From contig NZ_JAIQXX010000004.1 in NCBI RefSeq assembly GCF_021887715.1, forward strand, positions 62,001 to 126,000: DNA of 64,000 nt. Direction: 5' to 3'. This DNA comes from Winogradskyella immobilis (lineage in GTDB: Bacteria; Bacteroidota; Bacteroidia; Flavobacteriales; Flavobacteriaceae). Below, one piece after another: positions 1,194 through 48,088 of the stretch; within the stretch, counting starts at the first letter, position 1; each line of letters starts with the position of its first letter. Below the pieces are notes generated by a model. It made no database searches and was not told the DNA's origin. It saw only the letters and a program-made list of their open reading frames with translations. The position numbers and the translations under genes are program-made.

Positions 1194-2108
1194 ATGTCTT
1201 ACAGAGAAGAGTCGTATTATAAATATAAAGGCTATAGTCAAATAGCAACACAAGGGATAGATTTATCAAGACTATCGCTTGAAGAATTAAGAAACTTATG
1301 GGCTAAAACGATGGCAGATGGTTTTCATGGTATATGCTTTAGTATGTATGAAGATGGCCAAAACCCAGGAGATGATATTAGTTTTGAACAAGTAGAACGT
1401 CGTGTAAAAATCTTAAAACCTCATGTAGAAGCCATTCGTTCTTTTTCGTGTATAGAAGGAAATGAACATGTTCCTGTAGCAGCTAAAAAACATGGATTAA
1501 AAACTTTAGTTGGTGCATGGTTGAGTGACGATAAGGAAGATAATGAAAAAGAAATTGAAGGATTAATTGCGCTTGCAAAAGCAGGGCATGTAGATGTAGC
1601 AGCAGTTGGTAATGAGGTGTTATATAGAAATGATTTATCGTTAGAAGAATTGTTAGGTTACATAAAACGAGTGAAGGAAGCGTTGTCTGGTTTAAATATA
1701 CCAGTGGGTTATGTAGATGCTTATTACGAGTTTTCTCTTCATCCAGAATTGGTTGAAAATACTGATGTTATATTGGCTAATTTATATCCTTTTTGGGAAG
1801 GTTGTCCTATTGAATATGCTCTAGGTCATATGCAAGCCATGTACGGTCAAGTTGTTGATGCGGCTCAAGGAAAACCAATTATAGTTACAGAAACAGGTTG
1901 GCCTAGTGAAGGCGGAAGTTTTGAAGGGTCTGTAGCTAGTGATGTGGCAGCAATGAAATACTTTATTGATGCGGTACGTTGGACTAAAGAAAACGACATT
2001 CCTATATTTTATTTCTCATCTTTTGATGAATCTTGGAAAACAGGTGATGAAGGAGATGTCGGAGCCTATTGGGGACTTTGGGACAAGTATGAGCATCTTA
2101 AGTTTTAG
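1194..2108 (+). CDS. Glycoside hydrolase family 17, cytoplasmic beta-1,3-glucanase/glucosidase
   Basis: Likely hydrolyses beta-1,3-glucan (laminarin) oligosaccharides. The (beta/alpha)8 fold of family 17 is supported by the 'VGNEVLY' motif (general acid Glu141) and 'VTETGWPSEGG' (nucleophile Glu233), with 'ANLYPFWEG' between them. At 304 residues it is a bare catalytic domain. No signal peptide or lipobox is present, so it should act in the cytoplasm on sugars brought in by the symporter 30 bases upstream. The start is the first Met after the symporter stop. A perfect-palindrome terminator follows at 2261. Family assignment is firm; the exact cleavage mode (exo or endo, possible transglycosylation) is not readable. 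Confidence 0.88.
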   Translation: MSYREESYYKYKGYSQIATQGIDLSRLSLEELRNLWAKTMADGFHGICFSMYEDGQNPGDDISFEQVERRVKILKPHVEAIRSFSCIEGNEHVPVAAKKHGLKTLVGAWLSDDKEDNEKEIEGLIALAKAGHVDVAAVGNEVLYRNDLSLEELLGYIKRVKEALSGLNIPVGYVDAYYEFSLHPELVENTDVILANLYPFWEGCPIEYALGHMQAMYGQVVDAAQGKPIIVTETGWPSEGGSFEGSVASDVAAMKYFIDAVRWTKENDIPIFYFSSFDESWKTGDEGDVGAYWGLWDKYEHLKF

Positions 2109-2260
2109 TTAAGCATTCTTAAATTGTTATTTAGTACCTATACAATGGATGATTGTAACCCTTTCTGTAATTAAACTTTTTCACTATCTATTTTGCTTGT
2201 TTTTCATTAATATAGAATCATATTTTACTTAATATTAGATGAGAAGAGCCTAAACTAAAG

Positions 2261-2296
2261 AGCCTAACATTTAAATGTTAGGCTTTATTTTTATTT
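2261..2296 (+). terminator. Rho-independent terminator after the GH17 gene
   Basis: Perfect 24-base palindrome (half AGCCTAACATTT) at 2261-2284 followed by a T-rich run. It closes the symporter-GH17 unit. Confidence 0.75.
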
Positions 2297-2368
2297 GTAG
2301 AAAAGCGTTTATATGACATTTTCTACTCTTATAAGCTATACCATACCCAAATATACTATTACGTAATC

Positions 2369-2401
2369 ACAACCTTAACACAACATTACTACAACATCAA
2401 T
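2369..2401. promoter_or_regulatory. Three 11-bp direct repeats, candidate regulator site
   Basis: ACAACCTTAAC, ACAACATTACT and ACAACATCAAT lie head to tail with ACAAC at 2369, 2380 and 2391, an exact 11-bp period. A small palindrome ATTACGTAAT sits just before them. They lie about 220 bases upstream of the secreted binding-protein gene at 2618. Helical phasing suggests binding of a tandem or dimeric regulator; which one is unknown. Confidence 0.4.
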
Positions 2402-2426
2402 AATTTATCACAGTAAAGAGATGTTG

Positions 2427-2617
2427 ATAGTATCGATGAACTGTTATTAAAAATCGTTCAAATTCCATTTAAAGTACATTTTGTCAAAATCGTAATAAAA
2501 TAACACTTTTTTTATGTTGTATGTTTTTTGTAGTGGCTAATAATGCGAGATTGTTAATGATGTAGATGTATTTTTATAAGATATACAAATTTAAATTAAC
2601 TACTTAAATAAAATTTT
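2427..2617. other. AT-rich leader of the secreted protein gene
   Basis: The 509-base gap 2109-2617 holds the GH17 terminator, the 11-bp repeats and, in this last part, only AT-rich sequence. No open frame, RNA gene or convincing TAnnTTTG promoter could be picked out, although a promoter for the next gene should be here. Confidence 0.5.
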
Positions 2618-3979
2618 ATGAAAAAAATTACTCTTTTAACTTTTTTACTCATCGGGTCATTAGTTTTCTCTCAAGAACTAGTTACTAATGGTGATTTTGA
2701 AACAGGTATGGCTGATCCATGGTTTGGTAATGCAGCTAATGTTGTAGATCAAGGAGGGAACTTCCTTAATCAAGCTAATGTTATGTCAGCTAATCCAGGA
2801 CAACCTTTTCTGGTTAACTTAAGCCAAAATGTAGATTTAACAAATGGTGTAACATATGAAATGTCTTTTGATGCATTTACTGATAGTGCAACAGGTAGCA
2901 GAACTATAGTAGCTGGATTAGGTCAAAATGCAGCACCATTTGCAGCTTTAGTAGAAACTCTAACAATAACTTCTACTTTACAGACATTTACTTTTCAGTT
3001 TACGATAAACTATGGTGATGGTGTTGGTGATAGAGTTATATTTGATATGGCTGAGGAAACTGGCTTTATATTTATAGACAATGTATCTGTTACAGAGGTA
3101 ATGACTACATGTAATAATGGAGTTCAAGATGGAGATGAAACCGGTGTAGATTGTGGAGGATCTGTATGTGAACCATGCATAACTTTACCAGGAGTGCCAG
3201 CTCCTACACCACCAGCAAGAGATGCGGCTAGTGTTTTTTCAATATTTAGTAATGCTTATACAAATCAACCAAATGTAGTCTTCGGCGCATTTAACGTTGG
3301 TACACAAGATATTACTAATATTCAAGTTGATAGTGATGATGTTACTCAAGTGACTTTAATTCAACCAGATCCTCAATTTCTATTAGTTGATTGGGGTACT
3401 ATTGTTGATAATACTAGCATGACTCATTTTCATATGGATTATTGGATTGATACAAACCTTACAACAGGGTTAATAGCTAATCCAGCATGGTCTAACCATG
3501 TAGGTGATGTTGGTGAAACCTCTTCGTTTGGACTGACTAACCCCGTTTCTACATTTGGAGATTGGGTATCTATAGATGTTCCTCTTTCGACTTTTGATTT
3601 TGGAAATAATAGTAATAACCAACAAAGAGATGCATTAAGACAATTTGTACTAACTCTAGCAGGGGCAGATACGGGTAGTAGAACTATCTTTTTAGATAAT
3701 ATATACTTACATAATAATACGACATTAAGTACTAATGAATTTGAGATAGCACAAATTCAAGCTTTCCCTAACCCAACAAAAGGCAGTTGGGAAATTAATA
3801 GTATTAATAGAACAATTGAAAGTATTGAGGTTTTTGACATTTTAGGGAAAAATGTATTATCATTAACCCCTAATGCAACAGAAGTATCAATAGATGCTTC
3901 AGCATTAATAACAGGTATTTATCTAGCTAGAGTAACTTCTCAAGAAGGTACACAAACACTACGATTAGTTAAAAATTAA
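2618..3979 (+). CDS. Secreted two-domain carbohydrate-binding-like protein with T9SS sorting tail
   Basis: Residues 1-18 form a signal peptide (ends LVFSQ). Residues 20-160 resemble a CBM4/9-type beta-sandwich ('LVTNGDFETGMADPWFG' ... 'IDNVSV'). A Cys linker 'CNNGVQDGDETGVDCGG' and a Pro-rich hinge follow. Residues ~200-370 form a second beta-sandwich ending 'TIFLDNIYLHN'. The last ~75 residues ('AFPNPTKGSWEI' ... 'TLRLVKN') are a type A type IX secretion sorting domain, so it should be exported and held on or released from the cell surface. No catalytic domain is visible. With the GH17 gene and symporter upstream, a surface laminarin-binding role is plausible but inferred. Confidence 0.8.
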   Translation: MKKITLLTFLLIGSLVFSQELVTNGDFETGMADPWFGNAANVVDQGGNFLNQANVMSANPGQPFLVNLSQNVDLTNGVTYEMSFDAFTDSATGSRTIVAGLGQNAAPFAALVETLTITSTLQTFTFQFTINYGDGVGDRVIFDMAEETGFIFIDNVSVTEVMTTCNNGVQDGDETGVDCGGSVCEPCITLPGVPAPTPPARDAASVFSIFSNAYTNQPNVVFGAFNVGTQDITNIQVDSDDVTQVTLIQPDPQFLLVDWGTIVDNTSMTHFHMDYWIDTNLTTGLIANPAWSNHVGDVGETSSFGLTNPVSTFGDWVSIDVPLSTFDFGNNSNNQQRDALRQFVLTLAGADTGSRTIFLDNIYLHNNTTLSTNEFEIAQIQAFPNPTKGSWEINSINRTIESIEVFDILGKNVLSLTPNATEVSIDASALITGIYLARVTSQEGTQTLRLVKN

Positions 3980-4000
3980 GATATTTTAATTTTATTAAAT

Positions 4001-4030
4001 AAAAAACCGCATTCTAAAATGCGGTTTTTT
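4001..4030. terminator. Bidirectional terminator between convergent genes
   Basis: Left arm AAAAAACCGCATT, loop CTAA, right arm AATGCGGTTTTTT; U-tracts form on both strands. Serves the secreted protein gene and the convergent small membrane protein gene. Confidence 0.85.
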
Positions 4031-4073
4031 TGTTTAATAATGTTTATAAAAGATTTATAGATTAGTTTAAAAT

Positions 4074-4349
4074 TTAATCCCACTTTTCTTTTATTTTTTC
4101 ATTCATACCTTCAAGCCATTTAAACTGTTGCTTAATTTGTTCGCGACGTTCAGCAATAGCTTTAGATTTGGCTTCAATGTCGTTTAATACCTTCTGTCTA
4201 CGTAAACGTTGTTCTTCTTCTTTTTGAAGTATAACCTTTCTTTCGCTTTTTAGCTTAGACTTTTCTAGGTATCGACTTACAGCAATAACACCGAATATTA
4301 CAAGTAAAAGCCCTATGCTGATTAATACAGTAATAACCCATTCTTTCAT
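4074..4349 (-). CDS. Small single-pass membrane protein with coiled coil
   Basis: 91 residues, not recognised as a named family. Residues 5-27 form one transmembrane helix (VITVLISIGLLLVIFGVIAV); the rest is a highly charged Lys/Glu/Arg helix with heptad character, probably a cytoplasmic coiled coil. It lies 79 bases downstream of waaA on the same strand and could be read through from it. No function can be given. Confidence 0.6.
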   Translation of the reverse strand: MKEWVITVLISIGLLLVIFGVIAVSRYLEKSKLKSERKVILQKEEEQRLRRQKVLNDIEAKSKAIAERREQIKQQFKWLEGMNEKIKEKWD

Positions 4350-4428
4350 AATGTGTTATATTTAAGAGGTTAGTTGTTCTTAAAGATACAAAAAAGTTTA
4401 TAGATCGTCTTTTAAGTATTCAGAATAA

Positions 4429-5673
4429 TTATAGAGGAGCTCTAGATAGGTATTCTATGATAGAAGTAGTTGCTCCTTTATGTAGTGTAATATAATCCGA
4501 ATTTAATTGCCCAGATTTTACTCTAAATGGTTGGTCTTCTATTAATGTATGGATAATATCATTAAATTCCTTTTGATTAGAAATTGAAAATAAACCACCA
4601 TTTTTTTGCATTTTCATGGCTTCTGGAAATTTTTTATGATTATTACCAATAACGATAGGTAAGCTAAATACAGCCGGTTCTAAAATATTGTGCAACCCTG
4701 TTTTTCCAATAGCACCTCCTACATAGGCAATATCGGCATAATGATAAGCTTTACTTAACTGACCTATGGTATCTAAAATAAAAACCTTATAATCTTGCAA
4801 AGTATTGCTAGACATATTTGTATAGCTTACAGTGTCAGATTCAATTTGTGATACTAAAGATTTGGTATATGATGGTTTTATGTTGTGTGGAGCAATAATA
4901 AATTTTATGTCTTTATTTTTACAGCTATTGATTAATGGAATAAAAATAGCATCATCTTCAGGCCAAGAGCTTCCAAAAATGATAGTCGTTTGGTTGTCTT
5001 TAAATGTTTCTATATGTGTAAGCGTATTATCAATGTTTAATTGATGACTAACGCGATCATACCGTGTATCTCCAGATACGGAAACAGAAGAATAACCAAT
5101 ACCTTCAATTAAGATTTTGGAGCTTTCGTCTTGAGTAAAAATATGTTCAAAAGCAAATAAGGCATTTCGCATAAAACCACCATAAGACTTAAAAAAAGAT
5201 TGTTCGGCTCTAAATGTGGCAGAAATTAATAAAGCTCGTAATTGTCGTTGTTGAATCTCTTCTAAAAAATTGGGCCAAATATCATACTTCACAAAAACGA
5301 TAAGATCAGGATGCACTAGATCTAAAAACTGCTTAGCATTGTTTTTTGTATCTAAAGGTAAATAAACAGCAATATCTGCAATAGGAGAATCTTTTCGTAT
5401 TTCATAACCCGAAGGAGAAAAAAAGGATAATACAATTTTATGTGTTGGATACTTTTCTTTTAATTGTTGAAAGACAGGAAGTCCTTGCTCGTACTCGCCT
5501 AAAGAAGCACAATGAAACCAGAATGTTCTATCTTTTTCTGAAATATGAGTTTTAAGTCTTGTAAAAGTTTCAGATCGGCCAACAACTCCAAGTTTTAGCT
5601 TTTTATTAAAAATAGAAGCACCTTTAATAAAGAGATTAGCAATGTGAATACCTGAAGAATATAATGTTTTCAA
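4429..5673 (-). CDS. waaA: 3-deoxy-D-manno-octulosonic acid (Kdo) transferase
   Basis: GT30 glycosyltransferase that adds Kdo from CMP-Kdo to lipid A precursor on the inner face of the inner membrane. Recognisable are 'WFHCASLGEYEQG' (the catalytic Glu region near residue 60), 'KYDIWPNFL', 'TQDESSKILIEGIGY', 'VSGDTRYDRV' and the late donor-binding segment 'YVGGAIGKTGLHNILEPAVF'. The length of 414 residues is normal. The N-terminus is hydrophobic enough for membrane association. It is divergent from the sugar aminotransferase at 5794, whose promoter shares the 120-base gap. Confidence 0.93.
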   Translation of the reverse strand: MKTLYSSGIHIANLFIKGASIFNKKLKLGVVGRSETFTRLKTHISEKDRTFWFHCASLGEYEQGLPVFQQLKEKYPTHKIVLSFFSPSGYEIRKDSPIADIAVYLPLDTKNNAKQFLDLVHPDLIVFVKYDIWPNFLEEIQQRQLRALLISATFRAEQSFFKSYGGFMRNALFAFEHIFTQDESSKILIEGIGYSSVSVSGDTRYDRVSHQLNIDNTLTHIETFKDNQTTIIFGSSWPEDDAIFIPLINSCKNKDIKFIIAPHNIKPSYTKSLVSQIESDTVSYTNMSSNTLQDYKVFILDTIGQLSKAYHYADIAYVGGAIGKTGLHNILEPAVFSLPIVIGNNHKKFPEAMKMQKNGGLFSISNQKEFNDIIHTLIEDQPFRVKSGQLNSDYITLHKGATTSIIEYLSRAPL

Positions 5674-5721
5674 AAACTCAAATTATTTTATGCTAAAATA
5701 CAGTTCTTTCAATGAAATGCA

Positions 5722-5751
5722 TTGAACTCATCTTGACTTTTTGTATTTTCG
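5722..5751 (+). promoter_or_regulatory. Bacteroidota-type promoter for the aminotransferase-galE unit
   Basis: TTG at 5722-5724, 19-base spacer, then TATTTTCG at 5744-5751 (one mismatch to TAnnTTTG), 43 bases before the start codon at 5794. Confidence 0.5.
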
Positions 5752-5793
5752 CCAGAGCTTCAAGCGTATTATTCAACAAACGATTCCTTCAGA

Positions 5794-6954
5794 ATGAGAA
5801 AAATTCAAATGGTAGATCTTCAAGGTCAATATGCCAAAATTAAAGATATAGTAGATCCATCTATAGAAGAGGTAATGAACAGTGCAACTTTTATAAACGG
5901 ACCTAAAGTACATCAGTTTCAGAAAAATTTAGAAAATTACCTTAATGTAAAACATGTTATTCCTTGTGCTAACGGAACGGATGCTTTACAGATAGCAATG
6001 ATGGGTTTAGGTTTAAAACCTGGAGACGAAGTAATAACGGCAGATTTTACGTTTGCGGCTACTGTTGAGGTTATTGCATTGTTACAATTGACACCAGTAT
6101 TAGTAGATGTTGACCCTGTAACTTTTAATATAGATGTAGATGCTATTAAAAAAGCGATTACACCAAAAACAAAAGCGATTGTCCCAGTACATTTATTTGG
6201 ATTAGCAGCAGATATGGATGCGATTATGGATTTGGCTAAAGAACATAATCTATATGTAATAGAAGATAATGCACAAGGTATTGGAGGAGATTATACGCAT
6301 AAAGATGGCTCTAAAACAAAAACAGGAGCGATAGGAGATGTCGCTTCTACTTCATTTTTTCCGTCTAAGAATTTAGGATGTTATGGAGATGGAGGCGCTA
6401 TTTTTACAAATGATGATGATCTTGCACATACGATTAGAGGTATTGTAAACCACGGAATGTATAAACGTTATCATCATGATGTTGTTGGAGTCAATTCTCG
6501 TTTAGATTCAATTCAAGCAGCTGTTTTAGATGCTAAATTACCGCATTTAGATGCATACAATACGGCACGAAGGCATGCTGCTAGAAAATATAATGAAGCT
6601 TTTAAAAACCATCCTAGAATAACAACTCCAACCGGTTTATCGAGTTGCGACGGTATTTGTGATAACTGCAACTGTCATGTATTTCATCAATATACACTTA
6701 ACTTAAATGGAGTAGATAGAGATGCACTAGTGGCGCATTTAAATGAAAACAATATTCCTTGCGGTGTGTATTACCCTATTCCTTTACATAAACAAAAAGC
6801 ATATGTAGATAGCCGCTATAACGAAGCTGATTTTGTAGTGACCAATCAATTAGTAACATCTGTAATTTCATTACCAATGCATACAGAACTTGATGATGAG
6901 CAGATTGATTTTATTACTTCAACAGTTTTAAATTTTATAAACGCTAATTCGTAG
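5794..6954 (+). CDS. DegT/DnrJ/EryC1/StrS-family sugar aminotransferase
   Basis: PLP-dependent transaminase of nucleotide-linked keto-sugars for surface polysaccharide or LPS. Motifs: 'CANGTDALQIAMMGLGLKPG', 'ITADFTFAATVEV', 'VIEDNAQGIG' (Asp158 contacts the PLP ring N) and 'FFPSKNLGCYGDGG' with the Schiff-base Lys192. The 386-residue length is normal. A Cys-rich insert near residues 285-294 (CDGICDNCNC) precedes 'HVFHQYTL', the conserved strand of the C-terminal domain. Its stop is one base from the galE start, so the two are translationally linked. It resembles WbpE-like enzymes, but the substrate cannot be fixed from sequence. Confidence 0.88.
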   Translation: MRKIQMVDLQGQYAKIKDIVDPSIEEVMNSATFINGPKVHQFQKNLENYLNVKHVIPCANGTDALQIAMMGLGLKPGDEVITADFTFAATVEVIALLQLTPVLVDVDPVTFNIDVDAIKKAITPKTKAIVPVHLFGLAADMDAIMDLAKEHNLYVIEDNAQGIGGDYTHKDGSKTKTGAIGDVASTSFFPSKNLGCYGDGGAIFTNDDDLAHTIRGIVNHGMYKRYHHDVVGVNSRLDSIQAAVLDAKLPHLDAYNTARRHAARKYNEAFKNHPRITTPTGLSSCDGICDNCNCHVFHQYTLNLNGVDRDALVAHLNENNIPCGVYYPIPLHKQKAYVDSRYNEADFVVTNQLVTSVISLPMHTELDDEQIDFITSTVLNFINANS

Positions 6955-11004: not shown

Positions 11005-13743
11005 CTAAAGTGTATATACAGCTCTAAAGGTTATAAACCGTGGTTGTAAAAATGTTCTAGAACTAAGTATAGCTAAATTGGTTACGTTATTATTAATATT
11101 GGCATCTATATTTAATATGTTATTAGCTCTAACTTCAAACTCCCATTTGGCGTCTCTGTCTTTTCTGTATCCTACACGTGCACTCCATGTTTGAAATGAC
11201 TCTGAACGACCATCTACATCTTGGTTATTATATGCATAATCTGTAACGAAAGTGACAGAATCCCATATGTATGCATCAAAACGTATAGATGGTGCATTAG
11301 TAACAATACGAGAATCTCTTGTTCCTTGGTCTGTATTATTTACTGTATAATTATATCGTAATCTTACATTTGGAGCCTCTCTAAAATTGGTGCGAATTTC
11401 AGGCCTATAACCTTGTACAAAACTCTCATTAACTGATTGGCGACCACCAACAAATTGATTTAATATACTATAGTTAAAATTTGCTCTCATCGATGTTATT
11501 ATTTTACCAAAAGTTTTTTGCCAACTTCCAGTAACCGTTACTGTTTCATCAGCAAACTGAGAATTGAAGAATGTCCCTGTTCTAATAACATTATCAAACG
11601 ATGTAATACTTCTTATTTGATCAGTATTTCGAGTATAGCTAGCTCTTGCAAAAACATTTGTATTATTAAACAAATTAAAACTTCTGTAAAACAAAGAAAA
11701 GTTATGCCTTAAACCATTCTGTAATTCGGCATTACCAAAGGATAAATTATCAAAGCTATTTAATACAAGACCTTCTGCTAAACTGGTTACATCAGTAAAC
11801 TGATTACTTAATCTATAATTAAATTGTAAACTCTCAGAAGTTTTAAATTGAATACGTGCTTCTAGCTCGGGCAATACTCTAAAGAAATTATCTTCAAATT
11901 TATCACCAAATTGAATATTTTGATTTCCATAAGAATGGAATGACAATCCTGGCCTAAGTGTAAATTTGCCAACTCGAACATTATATCTCGTCGCTAAATA
12001 TATATCTCTAAAATTATATTCCGTATCGTTTACAAGTCCTAAAGTTCCTCCTTCTCCATCGGACACATCGCTCGTAGGGTCTAATTGACTTCCATTATCT
12101 AAAAATTGAAAGATATTAGAGTTAAACTCTTGACGACTTAAAATAGTTCCTAGGGTGAAACTAATATTACTTTTTGGACCTAAAATGTTATAATAATCTA
12201 ACTTGGCATCTAATTGATTTGTTTTTACCAATTGATTCTGACCGATATCATAAACATCTAAAGTCTGATCAAAACCTATTGTTTCTGCTGTCTCATCATA
12301 GGCATCTGTAACATTAGGGTCAAGACTATTTTGTAATAATGCATTATAGAACGGATCTTCATTTCTTATAAGGTGCTGTGCTTCTAAAGCAAAAATGTTG
12401 TTTTCATTTAATGTATAATAATAATTTAAATTCTGATTGATACTGTATGGTGTTGCTTCATCTAATTGAGACGTTTCACCAATTACCGAAGACAACTCTG
12501 ATTGACGTTCTTCATCTTTAGATAATCTTGCTAATACATCATAATCTAATTGGTTATTAGCATTTGGTTTATATGATGCACTTAATTTAGCTAAACCTTG
12601 ATCAGAAGCTTCACGACCTGTATTAATAGTTTCTTCATCAGGTATACCCAAATCTGGGTCTGTATATTGTATAAAACTTTCTTGTCTTGTATTTAAACGT
12701 GTTGTATTATAAATAACAAAACCACTTATATCTAGTGTCGTTTTTGGAGAATAACTGAAATTAGTTGCTAATAATTTAGACTCTACACGTTGTGCATTTC
12801 TAGAATTGGTTAATCCACCTAAACCATTATTTCCTAAATTAATATTTGTTCCGCTGCTAGCGCTTGGTGCTCTAAATCCACCACCAAAGTTTCTAACATC
12901 TCTATTAGAAAGTGCTGGTTCTCCTATATTATTAATATCACCAATGACATTGACACTATATTTAGGACTGTAATAGAATAATTTGGGCTGAACCAAATAG
13001 AGTTCGTCATTTGGTGAAGGAGCTGTACCAACACCAACGGTAATATCTCCAAACCAGAAATTCTCTTTACCTTCTTTTAATCTAATATTAATTGCTACAT
13101 TATCTTGATTATTTTGCACACCACGTAATTGGCTAACTTCAGAAAAATTACGTAATACTTCAATCTTATCTACGGCATTAGAAGGAATATTTTCAGTTGC
13201 CAACTTAGAATCTCCGTCAAAGAAATCTTTACCATTTACTGTTATTTTCTGAACGGTATTACCTTCAACTTCTATTTGTCCATTATCATTGATTTCAACG
13301 CCTGGAAGTTTCCCTAAAACGTCTCCTAACTTACGTTCAGATCCATTTTTAAAAGAATCTGCATTATATATTATAGTGTCTCCTTTTATTGTAACTGGTA
13401 ATTCATAAGTTAACTCTACAGCATCTAATGAGTTGTCTGGAACTAAAGTAAAATCTCTGATAAGATCTTCTTCTTTAGTTGTTATTATAGTATCTAAGGT
13501 TTTCATGCCCACATAACTCACTTGAACTTTGTAAGCTTTATTTTTACCTAAGGATAATCTGTATTTTCCTTTTGCGTCTGTAATACCGTAGGATTCTAGT
13601 GTGCTTGTCTCTTGCTCTATAGCAATGACATTAGCTAATTCTAGAACAATGCCAGTACTGTCTTTAACTGTTCCTTCTAATTTAACTTGGGCAAAAGTAG
13701 TGCTAGCTACGCATAGTAGCAGAATAGTGATTAATTTTTTCAT
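11005..13743 (-). CDS. Outer-membrane beta-barrel protein with CarboxypepD-like N-domain (paralog 1)
   Basis: 912 residues. Signal peptide (ends TTFAQ), then an Ig-like carboxypeptidase-regulatory domain ('VKLEGTVKDSTGIVLELANV', residues ~20-110). Next comes a plug-like segment ('DTIIYNADSFKNGSERKLGD', 'LPGVEIN', 'NIPSNAVDKIEVLRNFSEV'), then a long Asn/Tyr-rich beta-barrel ending in 'FRAVYTL'. This is the outer_beta-barrel family related to TonB-dependent receptors, but no TonB box is obvious after the signal peptide. It is last in the minus-strand cluster, 38 bases after a GLPGLI gene, and is a clear paralog of the 948-residue barrel upstream. Transport, secretion or envelope roles remain open; the substrate is unknown. 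Confidence 0.82.
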   Translation of the reverse strand: MKKLITILLLCVASTTFAQVKLEGTVKDSTGIVLELANVIAIEQETSTLESYGITDAKGKYRLSLGKNKAYKVQVSYVGMKTLDTIITTKEEDLIRDFTLVPDNSLDAVELTYELPVTIKGDTIIYNADSFKNGSERKLGDVLGKLPGVEINDNGQIEVEGNTVQKITVNGKDFFDGDSKLATENIPSNAVDKIEVLRNFSEVSQLRGVQNNQDNVAINIRLKEGKENFWFGDITVGVGTAPSPNDELYLVQPKLFYYSPKYSVNVIGDINNIGEPALSNRDVRNFGGGFRAPSASSGTNINLGNNGLGGLTNSRNAQRVESKLLATNFSYSPKTTLDISGFVIYNTTRLNTRQESFIQYTDPDLGIPDEETINTGREASDQGLAKLSASYKPNANNQLDYDVLARLSKDEERQSELSSVIGETSQLDEATPYSINQNLNYYYTLNENNIFALEAQHLIRNEDPFYNALLQNSLDPNVTDAYDETAETIGFDQTLDVYDIGQNQLVKTNQLDAKLDYYNILGPKSNISFTLGTILSRQEFNSNIFQFLDNGSQLDPTSDVSDGEGGTLGLVNDTEYNFRDIYLATRYNVRVGKFTLRPGLSFHSYGNQNIQFGDKFEDNFFRVLPELEARIQFKTSESLQFNYRLSNQFTDVTSLAEGLVLNSFDNLSFGNAELQNGLRHNFSLFYRSFNLFNNTNVFARASYTRNTDQIRSITSFDNVIRTGTFFNSQFADETVTVTGSWQKTFGKIITSMRANFNYSILNQFVGGRQSVNESFVQGYRPEIRTNFREAPNVRLRYNYTVNNTDQGTRDSRIVTNAPSIRFDAYIWDSVTFVTDYAYNNQDVDGRSESFQTWSARVGYRKDRDAKWEFEVRANNILNIDANINNNVTNLAILSSRTFLQPRFITFRAVYTL

Positions 13744-25277: not shown

Positions 25278-25290
25278 TCATATTTCTATA

Positions 25291-25321
25291 AAAAAGCATC
25301 TTTATTATAAAGATGCTTTTT
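25291..25321 (+). terminator. Terminator after the SnoaL-like gene
   Basis: Perfect 14-bp stem AAAAAGCATCTTTA, loop TTA, right arm TAAAGATGCTTTTT. Confidence 0.88.
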
Positions 25322-25433
25322 TATTCTAAATTAAATAATATTATAAATAAAGTTCCTAACTTTACAAACTTTGTAAAAATGCGCAGATAAATTCATTAAA
25401 TAATAGATTCTAAGTATTAAAATTACATATATT

Positions 25434-45232: not shown

Positions 45233-46195
45233 TTATGCGTTTTGAGCTTTAAAAGCTTTTAATTTTTCTGTAAGTTGAGGTATAACCTCAAATGCATCAC
45301 CAACAATACCGTAATCTGCAGCCTTAAAGAAAGGAGCTTCAGGATCAGTATTAATAACTACTTTTACTTTAGATGAATTAATACCTGCTAAATGCTGAAT
45401 TGCTCCCGAAATCCCAATTGCTATATATAAATTTGAAGCTACGGGTTTACCTGTTTGCCCAACGTGTTCGCTATGAGGTCTCCAACCCAAGTCAGAAACA
45501 GGTTTAGAACATGCGGTAGCTGCTCCTAAAACATCTGCTAAATCTTCTACTAATCCCCAATTTTCAGGACCTTTTAATCCTCGACCACCAGAAACAACTA
45601 CTTCGGCATCAGCAATAGTCACTTTATCCGTTGCTTTGTCTACGGATTCTACAACAACACCAGATTCTGGTAGTGAAGGCGAAAAATCTTCAGTAGTCGC
45701 AGAACCACTTGCTTCAACTAAACCAAAAGAATTATTAGATAACCCAACAATTTTTGTTGCTGTTGTAATTTCTGTATTAGTAAATGCTTTGTTTGTAAAT
45801 GCTGTACGTTTTACTGTAAAAGGAGTTATATTAGATGGAGCTTCAACAACATTAGACGCATAGCCTGCATCTAAACCTACTGCTAAAAGCGGAGCTAAAT
45901 ATTTGCTGTCTGCCGATGAGCTTAAAACGACAACGTCAGAACCTTCTTTTTCAGCAGCTTGCTGAATAATACCTGCGTATGCTTTAGCATTAAATGTATT
46001 TAAACTCTCATTAGAAACGTTAAGTACTTTAGACGCTCCGTAGTTTCCAAGTTCTGATGTGTCATTGACATTAATTGCTATTGCAGTTACAGTAGTTCCT
46101 ATTTTATCTGCTATAGCCTTACCGTATGAAACAACTTCTAAAGCTGTTTTTTTAAATTGCCCATTATCGGACTCTGTATATACTAGAATTGACAT
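45233..46195 (-). CDS. etfA: Electron transfer flavoprotein, alpha subunit
   Basis: Large ETF subunit that binds FAD and passes electrons from acyl-CoA dehydrogenases to the quinone pool. The C-terminal FAD domain is clear: 'VVSGGRGLKGPENWGLVEDL', 'GWRPHSEHVGQTGKPVASNL', 'YIAIGISGAIQHLAGI' and 'INTDPEAPFFKAADYGIVGD'. 320 residues is normal. It lies 13 bases after etfB on the minus strand. A 110-base gap with no convincing terminator separates it from the nuclease gene. Confidence 0.95.
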   Translation of the reverse strand: MSILVYTESDNGQFKKTALEVVSYGKAIADKIGTTVTAIAINVNDTSELGNYGASKVLNVSNESLNTFNAKAYAGIIQQAAEKEGSDVVVLSSSADSKYLAPLLAVGLDAGYASNVVEAPSNITPFTVKRTAFTNKAFTNTEITTATKIVGLSNNSFGLVEASGSATTEDFSPSLPESGVVVESVDKATDKVTIADAEVVVSGGRGLKGPENWGLVEDLADVLGAATACSKPVSDLGWRPHSEHVGQTGKPVASNLYIAIGISGAIQHLAGINSSKVKVVINTDPEAPFFKAADYGIVGDAFEVIPQLTEKLKAFKAQNA

Positions 46196-46208: not shown

Positions 46209-46955
46209 TTAAATCACTTTAGCTTCGTTGTGAAGTAAGTTTATTAATTGATCTATATTATCAGCGTCTACTAAAGTTACAGCACCTTTTGGAACTGGCT
46301 TTTCAAAACTTACACTATTAGTTTCAGTTGTAGATGTTGTAGGTTCTAAAACGGTTAAAGGTTTTTTACGAGCCATCATAATACCACGCATATTAGGAAT
46401 ACGTAAATCGCTTTCTTCAACTAACCCTTTTTGTCCACCTATAACTAATGGCAATGTTGTAGAAACAGATTCTTTTCCTCCGTCAATTTCTCTAACAGCT
46501 TTTGCATTATTACCTTCAACTTCTAAATGAATACAGTTAGTTACAAAATTTGCATCTATCATGGAAGCTAACATACCTGGTACCATACCACCATTATAGT
46601 CAATAGATTCTCTACCGGCTATTACCAAATCGTAATTACCATCTGTAACTACTTTTGCTAATTCTTTTGCTACAGCAAATCCGTCTTTTGCTTCAGTATT
46701 AACTCTAATGGCTGCATCTGCACCTATAGCTAAAGCTTTACGTAATGTCGGTTCAGTCTCAGTTCCACCAACATTAATAACATCAACACTAGCACCTTGT
46801 TTTTCTTTAAACCACATTGCTCGTGTTAAACCAAACTCATCATTAGGATTAATAACAAACTGTACACCATTAGTATCAAACTTAGTATTTCCTTCAGTAA
46901 AATTGATTTTTGATGTTGTATCAGGAACATGACTAATACACACTAAAATTTTCAT
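46209..46955 (-). CDS. etfB: Electron transfer flavoprotein, beta subunit
   Basis: 248 residues from the Met of 'MKILVCISHVPDTTSKINF', which is the conserved start; the open frame extends 34 residues upstream but that part is not ETF-like and runs into the promoter. Family segments: 'FVINPNDEFGLTRAMWFKEK', 'ALAIGADAAIRV', 'AGRESIDYNGGMVPGMLA' (AMP site) and 'LRIPNMRGIMMARKKPL'. It forms the heterodimer with EtfA and is first in the etfBA unit. A perfect 28-bp palindrome overlaps its probable -33 region. Confidence 0.94.
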   Translation of the reverse strand: MKILVCISHVPDTTSKINFTEGNTKFDTNGVQFVINPNDEFGLTRAMWFKEKQGASVDVINVGGTETEPTLRKALAIGADAAIRVNTEAKDGFAVAKELAKVVTDGNYDLVIAGRESIDYNGGMVPGMLASMIDANFVTNCIHLEVEGNNAKAVREIDGGKESVSTTLPLVIGGQKGLVEESDLRIPNMRGIMMARKKPLTVLEPTTSTTETNSVSFEKPVPKGAVTLVDADNIDQLINLLHNEAKVI

Positions 46956-46992
46956 ATTTTCTTGTTTTTTTGAGTATAATTTTAAGAGAAAA

Positions 46993-47000
46993 CAAAGGTA
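46993..47000 (-). promoter_or_regulatory. -7 element (TACCTTTG) of the etfBA promoter
   Basis: Perfect TAnnTTTG on the minus strand, 38 bases before the etfB start codon. The expected -33 position (about 47020-47024) falls inside the 28-bp palindrome. Confidence 0.55.
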
Positions 47001-47015
47001 GTTATAAAAATCAAA

Positions 47016-47043
47016 ATATTTACTATGCGCGCATAGTAAATAT
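47016..47043. promoter_or_regulatory. Perfect 28-bp palindrome, probable operator of etfBA
   Basis: Self-complementary around its centre; half-site ATATTTACTATGCG. Such long perfect dyads with no U-tract are typical of dimeric regulators such as the TetR family. It covers the -33 region of etfBA and also lies 67 bases upstream of pdhB. The binding protein is not encoded nearby. Confidence 0.65.
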
Positions 47044-47080: not shown

Positions 47081-47088
47081 TATTTTTG
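47081..47088 (+). promoter_or_regulatory. -7 element (TATTTTTG) for pdhB
   Basis: Perfect TAnnTTTG 22 bases before the pdhB start codon; the -33 TTG is not evident. Confidence 0.4.
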
Positions 47089-47110: not shown

Positions 47111-48088
47111 ATGAAGACAATTCAATTTAGAGAAGCTATTGCAGAGGCAATGAGTGAAGAAATGCGAAGAGATGAAAGCATTTATTTAATGGGTGAAGAA
47201 GTCGCAGAGTATAATGGTGCATATAAAGCATCAAAAGGTATGCTTGATGAGTTTGGTGCCAAGCGCGTTATCGATACACCTATTGCCGAACTTGGATTTG
47301 CTGGTATAGCTATTGGTTCTACAATGACAGGCAATCGCCCAATTGTAGAATATATGACATTTAACTTTTCTTTAGTTGGTATAGATCAAATTATAAATAA
47401 TGCAGCTAAGATTAGACAAATGTCTGGCGGACAATTTAAATGTCCGATCGTTTTTAGAGGTCCAACAGCTTCTGCAGGTCAATTAGCAGCAACACACTCA
47501 CAAGCTTTTGAGAGTTGGTTTGCTAATACGCCAGGATTAAAAGTTATAGTACCATCTAACCCTTATGACGCTAAAGGTTTGCTAAAGTCTGCAATAAGAG
47601 ATGACGACCCTGTTATTTTTATGGAGAGTGAGCAGATGTATGGAGATAAAGGCGAAGTGCCAGAAGGTGAATATACTATTCCTATAGGAGTTGCAGAAAT
47701 AAAGCGTGAAGGTACAGATGTAACTATAGTATCTTTCGGAAAAATTATTAAAGAAGCTTATAAAGCAGCTGACACGTTAGCTAAAGATGGTATTTCTTGT
47801 GAGATTATTGATCTGCGTACTGTTAGACCTTTAGATAAAAATGCCATTTTAGAATCTGTAAAGAAAACAAACCGTTTAGTCATTTTAGAAGAAGCTTGGC
47901 CATTTGGCAATGTATCTACTGAAATTACATATATAGTACAATCTGAAGCATTTGATTATTTAGATGCTCCAGTAATAAAGATTAATACGGCAGATACACC
48001 AGCACCATATTCTCCAGTTTTATTAGCAGAATGGTTGCCAAATCACGAATCAGTAATTACTGCTGTAAAAAAAGTAATGTATAAATAA
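47111..48088 (+). CDS. pdhB: Pyruvate dehydrogenase E1 component, beta subunit
   Basis: 325-residue thiamine-diphosphate enzyme subunit: 'FREAIAEAMSEEMRRDESIY', 'MGEEVAEYNGAYKASKGMLD', 'RVIDTPIAELGFAGIAIGST', 'VFRGPTASAGQLAATHSQAF' and 'RTVRPLDKNAILESVKKT'. The match is to the pyruvate-type E1 beta. It forms the alpha2beta2 E1 of the pyruvate dehydrogenase complex; E1 alpha and E2 are not in the window. It is divergent from etfBA, so acetyl-CoA formation and acyl-CoA oxidation genes share one control region. A hairpin terminator follows. Confidence 0.92.
   Translation: MKTIQFREAIAEAMSEEMRRDESIYLMGEEVAEYNGAYKASKGMLDEFGAKRVIDTPIAELGFAGIAIGSTMTGNRPIVEYMTFNFSLVGIDQIINNAAKIRQMSGGQFKCPIVFRGPTASAGQLAATHSQAFESWFANTPGLKVIVPSNPYDAKGLLKSAIRDDDPVIFMESEQMYGDKGEVPEGEYTIPIGVAEIKREGTDVTIVSFGKIIKEAYKAADTLAKDGISCEIIDLRTVRPLDKNAILESVKKTNRLVILEEAWPFGNVSTEITYIVQSEAFDYLDAPVIKINTADTPAPYSPVLLAEWLPNHESVITAVKKVMYK

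Follow-up and report, generated by a model that had tools for sequence, protein, structure and literature searches.

A conserved palindrome upstream of etfBA in Winogradskyella immobilis is the predicted operator of a MarR-type regulator of fatty acid oxidation genes

Results

A perfect 28-bp palindrome lies ahead of the electron transfer flavoprotein genes etfBA of W. immobilis. We propose, with a probability of roughly 0.8, that it is the operator of an autoregulated MarR repressor encoded on another contig of the same genome (C33), which would limit etfBA and β-oxidation until an acyl-CoA or lipid thioester accumulates. More broadly, many flavobacteria and some of their relatives share the site as a conserved switch for fat-burning genes, and the protein that binds it is very probably a MarR-type regulator not characterised so far.

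We examined the palindrome in the window, the whole 64-kb stretch of DNA that was analysed. It occupies positions 47016 to 47043, belongs to neither strand and is a predicted MarR operator. The two arms, ATATTTACTATGCG and CGCATAGTAAATAT, comprise 14 + 14 bases with no spacer and no mismatch, exactly as claimed in the first-pass annotation. At the base composition of the window, 0.0012 spacerless dyads with arms of at least 14 bases are expected by chance per 64 kb, and 40 first-order Markov simulations yielded no dyad whose arms reached 13 bases, in agreement with the earlier judgement that a chance origin is very unlikely. A 20-bp part (47020-47039) is conserved and encloses the core TATGCGCGCATA (47024-47035). 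Downstream, on the minus strand, lie etfB (46209 to 46955), encoding the 248-aa beta subunit of the flavoprotein, and etfA (45233 to 46195), encoding the alpha subunit. In the -7/-33 naming and consensus of Bacteroidota promoters, the -7 element TACCTTTG of etfBA (46993 to 47000, minus strand) starts 19 bp past the 20-bp site, and thus the expected -33 sits on the etfB-proximal arm, which confirms the overlap that had been annotated. The expected -33 itself contains no TTG. Two further inverted repeats were observed in the window: a second spacerless perfect palindrome of 12 + 12 bases at 2261-2284 (AGCCTAACATTT followed by its complement), and a perfect, terminator-like inverted repeat at 25288-25324 with 18-base arms, a 1-base loop centre and flanking A/T runs. 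A half-site at 13710-13718, close to where a minus-strand frame begins, was set aside as chance-like.

The divergent neighbour on the plus strand, a pdhB-like gene (pyruvate dehydrogenase E1 beta, 47111 to 48088), had been mentioned as a possible target, but we do not consider it one. It has its own -7-like element, TATTTTTG at 47081-47088, which is separated from the dyad by about 51 bp. The distance from the pdhB start to the site is variable, at 200-268 bp in 10 of the 20 loci listed and 70-71 bp in the other 10 (own locus counted). Control of pdhB was rejected on the basis of this promoter position and variable distance.

We then investigated the conservation of the site at etfB, using as queries 46209-46976, i.e., etfB with seven additional residues at the upstream end. 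The loci analysed were the best 80 of 574 confirmed relatives, hence close relatives, and are mostly labelled Winogradskyella, Olleya, Lacinutrix, Psychroserpens, Algibacter, Gelidibacter, Formosa, Kordia and Christiangramia (Flavobacteriaceae). All 80 of these best loci carried a site with at most three mismatches to the consensus TTAYTATGCRYGCATARTAA ahead of etfB or its operon, and the conservation upstream of etfB in relatives, whose absence would have refuted the first-pass annotation, was found. Within 300 bp of etfB, the site showed 0, 1, 2 and 3 mismatches in 32, 29, 12 and 3 of the best 80 loci, respectively, and in four others (L015, L024, L025 and L055) a perfect site was located about 835 bp upstream of etfB, ahead of an extra gene. 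This gene, about 800 bp upstream of etfB, has a signal-peptide-like start, and the site has stayed before it. The family core TATGCNNGCATA occurred 78 times in the 528,292 bases of the best 80 loci, one per locus in 78 of them, and the reversed core pattern, used as a control, was absent from the same bases. Furthermore, a -7 element (TAnnTTTG or TAnnTTCG) followed the site after 17-19 bp in 79 of the best 80 loci and after 15 bp in the remaining one.

Perfection of the dyad is itself not the conserved property: identical 9-bp arms were present in 23 of the best 80 etfB sites. Among these identical-arm sites, both arms read TTCC in six cases and both read TTGC in two, and such paired changes are what a symmetric dimer would demand. 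A consistent direction of arm asymmetry was also seen at the etfB and marR sites of relatives, where TTATTATGC predominates in the distal arm and TTACTATGC or ATACTATGC in the gene-proximal one.

The search of the own genome for further copies, proposed in the first-pass annotation, indeed returned one: at up to three mismatches, the 20-mer was found twice, as the window palindrome and at C33:21451-21470 (two mismatches), the end of the latter being 32 bp from the start of a gene for a 151-aa MarR protein (PF01047, 40.5 bits against a curated cut-off of 24.6). On the same strand, 3' of marR, lie genes for a fused 3-hydroxyacyl-CoA dehydrogenase/enoyl-CoA hydratase (fadB), a thiolase and an acyl-CoA dehydrogenase, which probably form one transcript with marR, and a gene for a fadD-like AMP-binding enzyme is located upstream of marR. 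Since acyl-CoA dehydrogenases pass their electrons to ETF, etfBA and the marR cluster belong to one pathway. The annotated link to fatty acid oxidation is supported by copies of the site at this cluster and at the regulator gene, and neither of the two outcomes that would have refuted the first-pass annotation was observed. The proposed TetR-type regulator was abandoned, as the regulator gene linked to the site, both by a copy at its own promoter and by co-occurrence, encodes a MarR protein, whose Pfam hits include no TetR family.

The predicted structure of the MarR protein (mean pLDDT 92.0) gave MarR-family structures as the best Foldseek matches, with E values from 1.1e-07. Identities in the 50 matches listed range over 14-23%, and DNA complexes of MepR, SlyA and FabT are among these matches. 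By sequence, the best PDB match was weak (1.4e-08), and in the search for a named MarR subfamily no NCBIfam equivalog cut-off was reached (best 38.4 bits against 200).

We next analysed 91 MarR loci, a subset of those found that includes 33 hand-chosen regions. The marR gene carried the site in its own promoter with at most two mismatches at 74 of the 91, compared with none for the reversed control. Within 250 bp upstream, 0, 1, 2 and 3 mismatches were counted in 53, 11, 10 and 8 loci, respectively, leaving nine of the 91 without a site at up to three mismatches; the reversed pattern scored no locus at up to two mismatches and one at three. Several marR promoters have a second, upstream site. 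When the better-scoring orientation and site were taken per locus, the distance from the site end to the -7 was 7-8 bp in all 30 marR sites and 7-9 bp in all 13 sites at genes for nitronate-monooxygenase-like proteins (nmo). The nmo product belongs to PF03060 and scores under the FabK cut-off.

In total, at least 72 distinct sites were collected (near-identical flanks merged), at least three of them stemming solely from the MarR search. The genes behind them are etfB (25), marR (30), nmo (13) and others (4), and the last four were counted against the MarR-operator reading. In one locus (L260), a separate copy of the site stands before a fadD-like gene. In the own genome, a site with one mismatch to TAYTATGCNNGCATARTA (C10:26668; locus L336, site 6172-6183) precedes a minus-strand gene pair (1690-6095) for a TonB-dependent receptor and then a GDSL lipase-like protein, a candidate lipid-uptake pair. 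Among 23 such receptor loci, the own counted, 21 carried a site with at most three mismatches about 75 bp upstream; one of the remaining two has four mismatches with an intact core, and the other has no site. The core stands 28-29 bp from a TATATTTA box in 18 of the 21 loci listed.

Overall, own-genome matches with at most three mismatches fell at 11 places (4 of them with at most two) against 6 control places, and those at three mismatches are near the control level. The core alone at up to one mismatch showed no excess in the own genome, with 16 matches against 18 in the control. A match at a DUF5117 metalloprotease-like gene (own C44:202524) was rejected as probably private or due to chance, since only the own one of 22 orthologue upstream regions contained the site. 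Core matches were also noted near beta-ketoacyl-ACP synthase III-like genes, both in the own genome (L337, site 2501, beside accB/accC-like genes) and in genome G021 (L132 and L212); they may be due to chance or point to a connection with fatty acid synthesis. Core matches were likewise seen on contigs C77 and C22.

Finally, the distribution of the site was compared with that of the regulator. At up to one mismatch, the site was present in 42 of 60 relatives, with 1-4 copies per genome, and in all 37 of the same genus (own counted), whereas just one of the 60 genomes matched the reversed control. The strict pattern TACTATGCNNGCATARTA was found in 49 of 395 Bacteroidota genomes and MarR (E ≤1e-20) in 73, with no match to the reversed control among those listed for the 395. 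All 49 strict-site genomes are among the 73 with MarR, and the 322 MarR-less genomes have no strict site; this division of the genomes and the absence of control matches were scored by visual inspection of tables, and the association is inflated by relatedness. The strict pattern is lacking in 24 MarR-bearing genomes. Families carry arbitrary numbers without names here (f1, f5, f17). In f5 (n = 8), the single MarR-less genome is also the single genome without the site. In f17, genes of the acyl-CoA-metabolism type stand behind all 15 fetched sites, namely a membrane Fe-S protein (4), acyl-CoA dehydrogenase (5), thiolase (2), CoA-transferase subunit (3) and acyl-CoA carboxylase (1), one of each kind having been checked by Pfam and the others assigned by eye from likeness. 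The f17 MarR proteins are about 36-40% identical and are encoded elsewhere than the f17 sites; five of their genes, at about 38% identity, are themselves preceded by no site, which was counted against the MarR-operator reading, as were the nine of 91 MarR loci without a site at up to three mismatches. Also counted against it was genome G046, in which two queries found no MarR although the site occurs twice (L100 and L128): an esterase-like gene follows one copy after 32 bp, and a short frame resembling a secretory lipase lies at a distance of 332 bp from the other. An orthologous MarR match was likewise not found in G001 (83% complete) or G019 (89% complete).

Discussion

Read from the DNA, the data comprise a site, its conservation, its gene context, its promoter geometry and its co-occurrence with MarR. 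From these we infer binding by MarR, acyl-CoA as the ligand, and repression over activation; the ligand and the mode of action follow the precedents of Bacillus FadR and of thioester-responsive MarR proteins, as far as these are described in the cited excerpts. A MarR homodimer would sit on two half-sites TTACTATGC. At etfBA it would cover the expected -33, and at marR and nmo it would occupy the region just upstream of the -7. Given a site over the etfBA -33 and another 7-8 bp from the marR -7, MarR most likely obstructs RNA polymerase and keeps its own production low. As a product of fatty acid uptake, probably a long-chain acyl-CoA or another lipid-derived thioester, builds up, MarR would leave the DNA, and ETF would then be produced together with the β-oxidation enzymes.

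The same MarR and the same site could instead serve activation of etfBA, and perhaps of the TonB receptor, in a class-II-like manner from a dyad placed at the -33 or just upstream of it, with the regulator's own gene repressed from the closer position. The nearly fixed spacing of 17-19 bp in 79 of the best 80 etfB loci of 574, the missing TTG in the etfBA -33 of the window and the more upstream placement at the TonB receptor, at 28-29 bp from core to box in 18 of the 21 loci listed, would all suit such an activator, and MarR activators exist according to the excerpt of PMC5487221. However, most characterised MarR proteins described in that excerpt repress, and at marR and nmo the site almost touches the -7, which is a blocking position. 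We regard activation as unlikely, though it is the strongest competitor of the repressor.

It is considerably less probable that a different DNA-binding protein owns the site and that marR is just one of its targets. The sites of G046, with no MarR detected, would fit this idea, but 74 of 91 loci carry the site at the marR promoter and its co-occurrence with MarR across 395 genomes is strict. Both facts speak for MarR itself, and local autoregulation is the simplest reading. That the palindrome arose by chance, or forms a hairpin, and has no regulatory role is scarcely credible: the window does hold other long inverted repeats, but the site recurs in 80 of 80 etfB loci (the best 80 of 574) at a fixed distance from the -7 and again at related genes, against an expectation of 0.0012. 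The MarR repressor remains our preferred reading.

Bacteroidota have an important part in degrading organic matter in the sea. An open-access full-text search, with most subscription papers and regulon databases outside its scope, recognised no paper on this MarR regulator or its motif, and found none on a fatty acid oxidation regulator in Bacteroidota. The site supplies a list of target operons together with a testable regulator, and points to the TonB-dependent receptor with its GDSL lipase-like partner as a candidate for lipid uptake. A wider proposal, to which we give slightly less than even odds, is that the MarR-type regulator of several Bacteroidota families acts as an acyl-CoA-sensing master switch of lipid catabolism, including ETF, β-oxidation and the TonB-dependent receptor/GDSL pair. 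If so, lipid import and cleavage in flavobacteria would follow a TonB-dependent route that is co-regulated with β-oxidation.

Among known systems, the TetR-family FadR of Bacillus subtilis is a repressor whose target operons include lcfA-fadR-fadB-etfB-etfA and which C14-C20 acyl-CoA inhibits, according to the excerpt of PMC4525379. As far as that excerpt describes it, FadR resembles the present case in having sites at etfBA, at β-oxidation operons and at the regulator's own operon, but the regulator here is of the MarR family and the operon layout differs. Our best reading is that the MarR protein, a member of a different family, plays the part of Bacillus FadR in a regulon with FadR-like targets; if true, the target logic of Bacillus FadR has been realised with a different kind of protein. 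Within the MarR family, the excerpt of PMC5487221 describes CouR and FerC as repressors of catabolic genes that are released by CoA thioesters, a likeness in which repression and the thioester response are predicted on our side; by that account they control hydroxycinnamate catabolism, whereas the candidate targets here are fatty acid genes, and the CouR chain 6c28 has weak sequence similarity to our MarR (E 0.00073). The same excerpt describes the streptococcal MarR protein FabT as a repressor of fatty acid synthesis genes whose DNA binding is strengthened by acyl-ACP. FabT, whose DNA complex 6jbx is among the fold matches of the MarR model at 16% identity, is thus also a MarR protein of lipid metabolism with an acyl-thioester response, which is predicted for ours; its targets in that account are synthesis genes, whereas those proposed here are degradation genes.
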